Program-made: the position numbers and the translations under genes | Source: Sphingomonadales bacterium Ga0077531 | GTDB lineage: Bacteria; Pseudomonadota; Alphaproteobacteria; Sphingomonadales; Sphingomonadaceae | Assembly (NCBI GenBank): GCA_001464915.1 | Contig: LNED01000033.1 | Location: 62,001 to 126,000 of the forward strand | Reading direction: 5' to 3' | DNA length: 64,000 bases | Shown: piece after piece, positions 31,459 through 34,143 of the stretch | How positions within the stretch are numbered: the stretch's first letter is position 1 | Layout: every line of letters starts with the position of its first letter | Notes under the pieces: model-generated | Database searches by the model: none | Told to the model about the DNA's origin: nothing | What the model saw: only the letters and a program-made list of their open reading frames with translations

Positions 31459-32547
31459 CTAGACCCGCTCCACGCTCCCGCCGCTGACGCGCCAGATCGC
31501 GGCCTCACCGCGAATTGCATCGAAGGGTGCAAGCTCAGTCCCCGTCATCCACACCTGTGCTTGGCCTTCCCGCAACCGACGGAACAGTTCGGTGCGGCGG
31601 ACGGGATCAAGGTGCGCGGCGACTTCATCAAGTAGCAGCACGCTTGGCCGCCCAGCCGAGGCGAGGATGCCGTGAGCCAGCGTGATCGCGATCAGCATCG
31701 CCTTCTGCTCGCCGGTGGAACATGATGCGGCGGGTTGGTGGGTGGAGGCCATCACCACTTCCAATTCATCGCGCTGCGGCCCGGTGAGCGCGCGCCCTGC
31801 CGCCCTGTCGTGCGGGCGATTGCGGGCGAGTTCAGCGCGCAAGGCTGTCTCGTCGACCGGCCCGCCGGGGCGATAAGTCAGGGCAGGGCGGGCGAAGGGC
31901 TCGGGCGGCAGGGCGGAGAGTTCATCCACCAACCGCGCCGCCAGCATTGCGCGGGTGCCTGCGACCGCCGCGCCGTGATCGGCCACCTGTGCCTCCACTG
32001 CGTCGAGCCAGCGCGCGTCGCCGCCATTGTCGAGCAATCGCCCGCGTTCGCGCAAGCTCGTCTCCAGCGCACCCACCCGCCGTGCATGATCGGGCGCGAT
32101 AGCCAACGCCATGCGGTCCATGAACCGCCGCCGTGCGCCGGCGCTGTCGGTGAACAATCCGTCCATCGCCGGGGTCAGCCAGCTGAGCGCCAGCCATTCC
32201 GCCAGGCTCGCCGCGCTGGCAGGTGCGCTATTGACCCGCACCAACCGCCGTCCGGGCTGCCCGGCCTCGGTATAGGTGCCAAGCCTTGCCGACAGCGTGC
32301 CCTGTTCGATCAGGCTCGCACCGATGGCGAAGGGTAGCGGCGGATCGCCCGGAGCAGCCCTTCGCGCTATGTCGCCAAGGTTTGCGCGCCGCAGTCCGCG
32401 TCCGGGGCCGAGCAACGAGATCGCTTCGAGCAGGTTGGTTTTTCCCGCCCCATTCTCCCCCACCAGCAGATTGAAATGCGCCGTCTCCGCCAGCGTGGTC
32501 GCGGCGTGATTACGGACATTTTCAAGGCTGATCTTGCTGAGCGCCAT
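31459..32547 (-). CDS. recF: DNA replication/repair protein RecF
   Basis: ISLENVRNHAATTL, VGENGAGKTNLLEAISLL, SVLLLDEVAAHLD. Confidence 0.95.
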   Translation of the reverse strand: MALSKISLENVRNHAATTLAETAHFNLLVGENGAGKTNLLEAISLLGPGRGLRRANLGDIARRAAPGDPPLPFAIGASLIEQGTLSARLGTYTEAGQPGRRLVRVNSAPASAASLAEWLALSWLTPAMDGLFTDSAGARRRFMDRMALAIAPDHARRVGALETSLRERGRLLDNGGDARWLDAVEAQVADHGAAVAGTRAMLAARLVDELSALPPEPFARPALTYRPGGPVDETALRAELARNRPHDRAAGRALTGPQRDELEVVMASTHQPAASCSTGEQKAMLIAITLAHGILASAGRPSVLLLDEVAAHLDPVRRTELFRRLREGQAQVWMTGTELAPFDAIRGEAAIWRVSGGSVERV

Positions 32548-32613
32548 ACTTCCTGCGCGGGTAGCACAGGGTGACGAATTGGCCAGAGCCGCCCTCCCAA
32601 AATCCGCAATCCC

Positions 32614-32640
32614 AAACCTTGGGAAAAATTACCAAGCTTT
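32614..32640. promoter_or_regulatory. candidate upstream activator site (inverted repeat)
   Basis: AAACCTTGG...CCAAGCTTT (8 of 9 arm positions pair) about 85-95 bp upstream of the -24/-12 element. Confidence 0.4.
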
Positions 32641-32709
32641 CGCTCAGATGAACGGGCTGTTTGCGGCGAGAAAGCATCAGAATGGCGGAAATCAGCCATT
32701 TTTCAAGTT

Positions 32710-32725
32710 TGGCACGGCCCGTGCA
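32710..32725 (+). promoter_or_regulatory. candidate sigma-54 (RpoN) -24/-12 promoter
   Basis: TGGCACG-GCCC-GTGCA versus consensus TGGCACG-N4-TTGCW; GG-N10-GC spacing exact. Confidence 0.7.
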
Positions 32726-32788
32726 GAGTACTTTGCATCCCCGGGATGGTCCCGGAACACAGTGAAAAACACCAAAGGAGATTACCCA

Positions 32789-32902
32789 ATGTTTGCTCAA
32801 GACACCTCGAACCGTCTGTTCGCTGCCGCTTTCTCGGTCATCATTTCGGCCGCGTTTCTTGCCTACGCGATCATCCCCGCCAGCCCCGGCCTCGTTGCCT
32901 GA
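32789..32902 (+). CDS. 37-aa single-TM microprotein, copy 1
   Basis: MFAQDTSNRLFAAAFSVIISAAFLAYAIIPASPGLVA; preceded by AAGGAG; paralog of next ORF. Confidence 0.8.
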   Translation: MFAQDTSNRLFAAAFSVIISAAFLAYAIIPASPGLVA

Positions 32903-32938
32903 GCCTCACCACCCCCATTTGAAGAAGGATTAAGTCTC

Positions 32939-33052
32939 ATGTTCCGCCCCGAAACCAGCGCTCGCTTTGTCTCAGCCGCCTTTGCTGTCGTGCTGACGGT
33001 TGCAAGCTTCGCCTATGCGATCATCCCTGCCAGCCCCGGCATGGTTGCCTGA
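32939..33052 (+). CDS. 37-aa single-TM microprotein, copy 2
   Basis: MFRPETSARFVSAAFAVVLTVASFAYAIIPASPGMVA; preceded by GAAGGA; same length and C-terminus as copy 1. Confidence 0.8.
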   Translation: MFRPETSARFVSAAFAVVLTVASFAYAIIPASPGMVA

Positions 33053-33097
33053 CGCCTGCGCACTCGCCTCAACTTTCGGATTTAAGGGACTTTTGAT

Positions 33098-33313
33098 ATG
33101 ACCAACCTCACCAACACCCCCGGCGGAAAGCCGCCCCGCACGAGCTTTCGGCTCGACAAGAACAACGGAAAGGTTTTCGGCGTGTGTGCCGGGATCGGTG
33201 ACTATTTCGGCATCGATACGATGCTGGTGCGGATCGGCTTTGTCGCGGCAGCACTGTTCGGCTTCGGCGCACCGGTGCTGATCTACCTCGCGATTGCTTT
33301 GATCGCGGACTAA
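33098..33313 (+). CDS. PspC domain-containing protein
   Basis: FRLDKNNGKVFGVCAGIGDYFGIDTMLVRIGFVAAALFGFGAPVLIYLAIALI. Confidence 0.9.
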   Translation: MTNLTNTPGGKPPRTSFRLDKNNGKVFGVCAGIGDYFGIDTMLVRIGFVAAALFGFGAPVLIYLAIALIAD

Positions 33314-33326
33314 TTTTTGCTGGCAA

Positions 33327-33350
33327 GCGGGCACCTCATGTGGTGCCCGC
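33327..33350. terminator. hairpin between convergent genes
   Basis: GCGGGCACC-TCATGT-GGTGCCCGC perfect 9-bp stem. Confidence 0.6.
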
Positions 33351-33360
33351 CGCCCGGCAA

Positions 33361-34143
33361 TTACATGGCGCTGATGCCGCCATCCAGTTTCAGCTCTGCC
33401 CCGGTCATGAAGCGGCTTTCGTCGCTCGCCAGATAGAGCACCGCGTTGGCGATGTCGTTGGGCTCGCCGACGAATTTGAGCGGAATTTGCCGCGCCAGCT
33501 TTTCCAGTAACACTTCGCGATCGAGCGAGGCTGCCTTGGCTGTCCCATCAAGGATCGGCGTATCGACAAAGGTCGGGTGCACCGAATTGCAGCGGATATT
33601 CATGCCCTTTTTCGCGCAGTGCAGCGCGATTGATTTCGACAGCATCCACACCGCTGCCTTTGATGCGTTGTAAGCGGGCATGGTGTCGCTCGCGATCAGG
33701 CCCGCGATCGACGAGATGTTGATGATCGACCCCGGCGCGTGCTCGCGCATCAGCGGCAGGGCTTTCTGGCAGCCGTGGAAGATCGAATTGACGTTGATGT
33801 CAAAACACCGCTGCCAATCTTCGAAGGTGCAGGCCTCGATATTGCCCGCGACCCCGATCCCGGCATTGTTGACCAGCACGTTGAGCCCGCCGAGGTGTTC
33901 GCGCGCGGCATCGACCGCGGCTTCCCACTGCGCCGGGTCGGTCACATCATGCGCGATGCTGAACGCAGTGCCAGCGCCCATTTCGGCGTTGATGATCGCC
34001 GCCGTTTCCGCCGCGCCCGCGCCGTTGATGTCGGTCGCCAGCACCCGCGCGCCTTCTTGCGCCAGCCGGATGCAATGCGCGCGGCCCAAGCCTTGCGCGG
34101 CCCCGGTTACCAGGGCCATCTTGCCTGCTACTCTGCCTGCCAT
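33361..34143 (-). CDS. SDR family oxidoreductase
   Basis: KMALVTGAAQGLGRAHCIRLA; NNAGI; YNASKAA. Confidence 0.92.
   Translation of the reverse strand: MAGRVAGKMALVTGAAQGLGRAHCIRLAQEGARVLATDINGAGAAETAAIINAEMGAGTAFSIAHDVTDPAQWEAAVDAAREHLGGLNVLVNNAGIGVAGNIEACTFEDWQRCFDINVNSIFHGCQKALPLMREHAPGSIINISSIAGLIASDTMPAYNASKAAVWMLSKSIALHCAKKGMNIRCNSVHPTFVDTPILDGTAKAASLDREVLLEKLARQIPLKFVGEPNDIANAVLYLASDESRFMTGAELKLDGGISAM

Follow-up and report, generated by a model that had tools for sequence, protein, structure and literature searches.

The window, the whole 64-kb stretch of DNA that was analyzed, carries a short forward-strand gene cluster between two reverse-strand genes. The features of this region, in order, are as follows.

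31459-32547, reverse strand: recF, a neighboring gene named from sequence
32612-32635, forward strand: putative upstream activating sequence of the PspF type, CCAAACCTTGGGAAAAATTACCAA; 98 bp separate it from the -24 element
32674-32709, forward strand: promoter-proximal element of the AAnnGCnGAATTCcGCCaTTTTTCgAGTT type, a consensus common to psp promoters at the same position
32710-32724, forward strand: predicted sigma54 -24/-12 promoter TGGCACGGCCCGTGC, with 10/11 consensus positions; the box recurs at nearly all related clusters
32741-32755, forward strand: hairpin CCGGGA-TGG-TCCCGG, close to where the transcript is expected to begin
32775-32780, forward strand: Shine-Dalgarno (SD) sequence AAGGAG of microprotein 1, conserved among relatives
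32789-32902, forward strand: microprotein 1, 37 aa, a single hydrophobic helix
32924-32929, forward strand: SD sequence GAAGGA of microprotein 2
32939-33052, forward strand: microprotein 2, 37 aa, a paralogue of microprotein 1
33098-33313, forward strand: mini-PspC, 71 aa, a PspC domain that lacks the periplasmic C-terminal part
33361-34143, reverse strand: short-chain dehydrogenase-type gene, a neighbor named from sequence

An earlier sequence-only reading had placed two 37-codon ORFs, each with its own SD sequence, ahead of a PspC-domain ORF, and all of these elements lie exactly where it put them. The two products are indeed paralogues, with 59% identity over 37 residues. Microprotein 1 is masked in the mechanical ORF list, in which a longer frame opens at an upstream TTG. 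A protein search of 61 genomes retrieved relatives of the microproteins, free of internal stops, from 34 genomes of the genus out of 37, counting the window's own, and from none of the 24 that belong to other families. A profile search extended to 299 genomes of the order found relatives in 67, every one of them from the same family, and the named records carrying them belong to Erythrobacter, Porphyrobacter, Qipengyuania, and an Altererythrobacter. Clusters contain one to four copies, most commonly two (78 clusters) or three (35 clusters), and a third class of microprotein, 48 aa long, occurs in some Erythrobacter.

Several features of these ORFs bear on whether they are translated. An SD-like site precedes 257 of 269 family members, compared with 16% of all ATGs. 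Median dN/dS values of 0.27 and 0.24 (876 and 832 sequence pairs, respectively) point to purifying selection on both ORFs. Most variation in the alignments falls at third codon positions, and in shifted frames nonsynonymous change exceeds synonymous change, the reverse of what is seen in the true frame. Because of their conservation, SD sites, dN/dS, and codon-position pattern, the microprotein ORFs very probably specify proteins under selection. The sequence-only reading had suggested as much from two diverged copies that keep length and motif, and the dN/dS of about 0.25, together with the open frames and SD sites in relatives, bears it out.

Searches of Pfam, NCBIfam, PHROGs, and PDB sequences yielded nothing for the microproteins that passed a curated cut-off. 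Weak hits to SoxE_N, DUF5325, TIGR02808, and YnaM/YnfT lay under the respective cut-offs and were discarded, and a third protein match in the window's own genome (L003, E 0.7) was judged to be due to chance. Rfam returned no match for positions 32548-33360.

The promoter region is more telling of the regulation of the cluster. A 24-nt enhancer matrix built only from the pspA promoters of other genomes, and scanned over both strands, gave its top match in the whole 64-kb window at 32612-32635. This site is separated from the -24 box by exactly 98 bp, the same spacing as in psp promoters, and of 88 distinct microprotein promoters, 83 have the enhancer at -98. When a near-identical matrix (the same pspA-promoter sites plus that of the window's own genome) was applied to the psp region of E. 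coli K-12, its best match was the psp enhancer TTAGTGTAATTCGCTAA, which lies about 88 bp from the E. coli sigma54 box by hand count. The sigma54 box itself, TGGCAC[GA]N5TGC or a near variant, was located 59-86 nt ahead of the first ATG in the promoters examined, L028/L117 excepted. The latter is the main microprotein cluster of genome G021, which is preceded by unrelated DNA with neither enhancer nor sigma54 box; a second cluster of that genome retains both elements, and the main one represents a natural promoter loss. Just 5' of the -24 box, psp and microprotein operons both carry the proximal element, GAATTCCGCC followed by TTTTTC. Downstream, 76% of the 88 leaders have a stem of at least 5 bp, compared with 17% of shuffled sequences, and the 41 distinct stems indicate that the stem is kept despite sequence change.

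Genome-wide statements on these promoters derive from pattern searches. Across the 61 genomes, the combined enhancer-plus-promoter pattern matched zero to three times per genome, and its reversed control did not match at all. The two matches in the window's own genome are the psp operon and the microprotein operon, and all 24 non-psp matches in genomes G000-G036 are positioned just 5' of independently found microprotein clusters, as compared by eye. One genus member, G002, has no microproteins, no mini-PspC, and no pattern match; its psp promoter (L205) still has a similar enhancer sequence.

The window's own genome encodes RpoN and a true PspF (481 bits; cut-off, 444). Its pspF gene is divergent from a psp operon ordered leader, PspA, PspB, PspC, and the sigma54 box and upstream elements of this operon resemble those of the microprotein operon. 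Since almost every genome of the order encodes PspF (283 of 299), its co-occurrence with the microproteins is uninformative as a test, and the case for PspF control rests on promoter anatomy. On this anatomy, we consider it very likely that the microprotein operon is under PspF control. Membership in an envelope-stress module, which the sequence-only reading had deduced from the neighborhood, is likewise upheld by a PspF-type enhancer and a sigma54 box at psp-operon spacing. A further observation concerns the psp operon of the window's genome (L239; G000:C22:268500-273400, reverse strand). There, PspA, PspB, and full-length PspC are followed by four tandem PspB-like ORFs of 83-121 aa, each combining an N-terminal helix with a coiled coil of the 'RLEDRVQVLERIVTDRG' type, and a SufE-like ORF comes next.

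Mini-PspC passes the PF04024 model (E 2.5e-17; 62.9 bits versus a gathering cut-off of 25) and scores 57.9 bits against the full-length PspC equivalog TIGR02978, under its cut-off of 104. Like PspC, it has the PspC domain, a GVC.GI motif, and a membrane segment, which in the window's mini-PspC includes the glycine that aligns with E. coli G48. Unlike PspC, it has no periplasmic/leucine-zipper C-terminal part, as seen when it is aligned with E. coli PspC and the canonical PspC of its own genome. In E. coli, the effector PspG is bound by the membrane segment of PspC, PspG self-associates, and residues 1-68 of PspC fail to bind PspA in two-hybrid assays (PMC3068692). Mini-PspC resembles this 1-68 fragment; therefore, the most economical model is that it would act as a scaffold for small helices and remain silent towards PspA.

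In L306, L309, and L310, the microprotein stop overlaps the mini-PspC start (GCATGA), which suggests translational coupling. These overlaps and the short intergenic gaps would also suit leader peptides, i.e., ORFs whose translation merely regulates mini-PspC by attenuation or coupling while their products are irrelevant. We regard this explanation as highly improbable, given a dN/dS of about 0.25, the occurrence of two to four tandem paralogues, and the extra clusters found elsewhere in some genomes, which lack pspC yet have their own enhancer and promoter.

The scope of the original proposal, a search with the motif YAIIPASPG.VA, proved too narrow. Such a search would recover only the Erythrobacter-like branch, whereas the same layout occurs in many genera with quite different microproteins. 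The enhancer-plus-promoter pattern matched in 58 of 250 family genomes and in none of the controls. Among 30 pattern loci examined, the non-psp ones have genes for one to three short hydrophobic proteins, with a mini-PspC of 59-71 aa next in most cases. A second approach started from mini-PspC and covered 40 loci in other genera. A sigma54 box lies at a fitting distance ahead of mini-PspC in all 40 (the first candidates at L336 and L337 were spurious, the correct boxes being nearer the genes), and the best enhancer match falls at -97 to -99 in most of them, a few being weak. Between promoter and mini-PspC, 39 of the 40 loci encode one to four microproteins of 28-49 aa, counting L306, which required reading by eye; at the remaining locus, L311, mini-PspC stands without a detected microprotein. 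The microproteins of other genera often have no obvious sequence likeness to the window pair, and what they have in common with it is size, topology, and position. A class-wide search gave matches solely in the window's own family. For other families, the search of the order usually returned one weaker PspC match per genome, of canonical type by score.

The AlphaFold model of the microprotein comprises a helix at residues 2-28 (mean pLDDT, 82). In a set of 58 microproteins, mostly from other genera, 60 Lys/Arg residues lie on the N side of the helix and one on the C side. The final residue is nonpolar in all 58, and 43 of them end in [VILMF]A, compared with 2.65% of long ORFs. Hydrophobic-Ala C-termini, at 32891-32899 and 33041-33049 in the window, are thus kept across unrelated-looking microproteins, and this tail is possibly a substrate signal for a tail-specific or PDZ protease.

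A different use of the C-terminal residues would be release. The helix would then be a signal peptide, cut after A-x-A (residues 25-27) to free a periplasmic or extracellular peptide, e.g., IIPASPGLVA, as a stress signal. Of 196 relatives in the Erythrobacter-like branch, 189 and 191 do have Ala at the first and second Ala positions of A-x-A, the middle residue being less constrained. However, just 27 of the 58 proteins of the wider set have A-x-A near the helix end, the arrays of 28-aa proteins would leave almost nothing to release, and the helix in the AlphaFold model continues through residue 28, all of which make cleavage quite unlikely.

We also weighed whether the microproteins could be membrane-depolarizing or 'silencing' peptides like YohP or TisB of E. 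coli and, once PspF has sensed damage, would lower the proton-motive force and slow metabolism. Like those proteins, the microproteins are shorter than 50 aa, form a single hydrophobic helix, and are apparently stress-linked. The 27-aa YohP provides a precedent, as it reduces the membrane potential and leads to induction of PspA/PspC (PMC12719787), and free sequence variation across genera would suit proteins that act physically on the membrane. Nevertheless, depolarization would oppose the protective psp operon under the same regulator, and co-transcription with mini-PspC suggests partner binding. The microproteins further differ from YohP and TisB in their regulator and in their tandem arrays with a partner gene, no sequence similarity to either was detected, and their very few charges, with a single C-side Lys/Arg in 58 proteins, set them apart from cationic depolarizers. 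We thus hold this explanation to be unlikely.

Our preferred reading is that this sigma54/PspF-controlled operon probably constitutes a second arm of the phage-shock response, one with an effector role. Sequence analysis supports the coding capacity of the operon, its conservation, its promoter anatomy, and the topology bias of its products; from these we infer induction by PspF in vivo, docking, and membrane protection. Upon membrane damage, PspF would be released from PspA, bind the enhancer at 32612-32635, and activate the sigma54 promoter at 32710 in the way it does for psp. The resulting transcript, probably shielded by its 5' hairpin, would yield two microproteins (one to four elsewhere), inserted as single helices in an N-in/C-out orientation, along with mini-PspC, in which the membrane-embedded PspC domain is kept and the C-terminal part is gone. 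By analogy with PspG and PspC, the microproteins may dock on mini-PspC, or on PspB/PspC, and would act from there on the damaged inner membrane without feedback to the PspA-PspF switch. In this analogy, they are more likely effectors than regulators.

This arrangement has a counterpart in pspG of E. coli and Yersinia, an orphan PspF target that is likewise a separate sigma54/PspF-controlled locus for a small inner-membrane protein; for the operon of the window, this likeness is read from sequence features, namely promoter, helix, and charge bias. In place of pspG, window-type operons have one to four tandem single-helix proteins of 28-49 aa plus mini-PspC, and the microproteins show no sequence resemblance to PspG, whose family is among the Pfam/NCBIfam models that they do not match above cut-off. 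The psp operon of this bacterial family shares with the microprotein operon the enhancer at -98, the proximal element, and the sigma54 box. Its first gene encodes a single-helix protein of 50-61 aa with a hydrophobic-Ala end, like the microproteins. Unlike the microprotein operon, it encodes PspA, PspB, and full-length PspC, and its leader protein differs in sequence. The text of a 2024 comparative Psp study is silent on pspG, sphingomonads, Erythrobacter, and microproteins (PMC11237479), and we found no description of the operon in sphingomonads or Erythrobacter in the open-access literature.

The PspF regulon is usually given as the psp operon and pspG, the latter being, according to a 2022 survey of Psp systems, the only further target of PspF known from E. 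coli (PMC9239133). A second PspF-type operon can now be followed across many genera. It was traced by its promoter, its products being too short and variable for family models; regulatory anatomy, in place of homology, thus offers one route to such microprotein genes. Mini-PspC, in turn, is a natural case in which the PspC membrane domain stands apart from the signaling part. For the family as a whole, it is plausible, if not quite probable, that the second Psp arm consists of interchangeable, fast-diverging arrays of transmembrane microproteins that share a conserved nonpolar C-terminus, mostly hydrophobic-Ala, and use a dedicated mini-PspC as their docking site, and that promoter, size, and topology, not sequence, are what this arm conserves.
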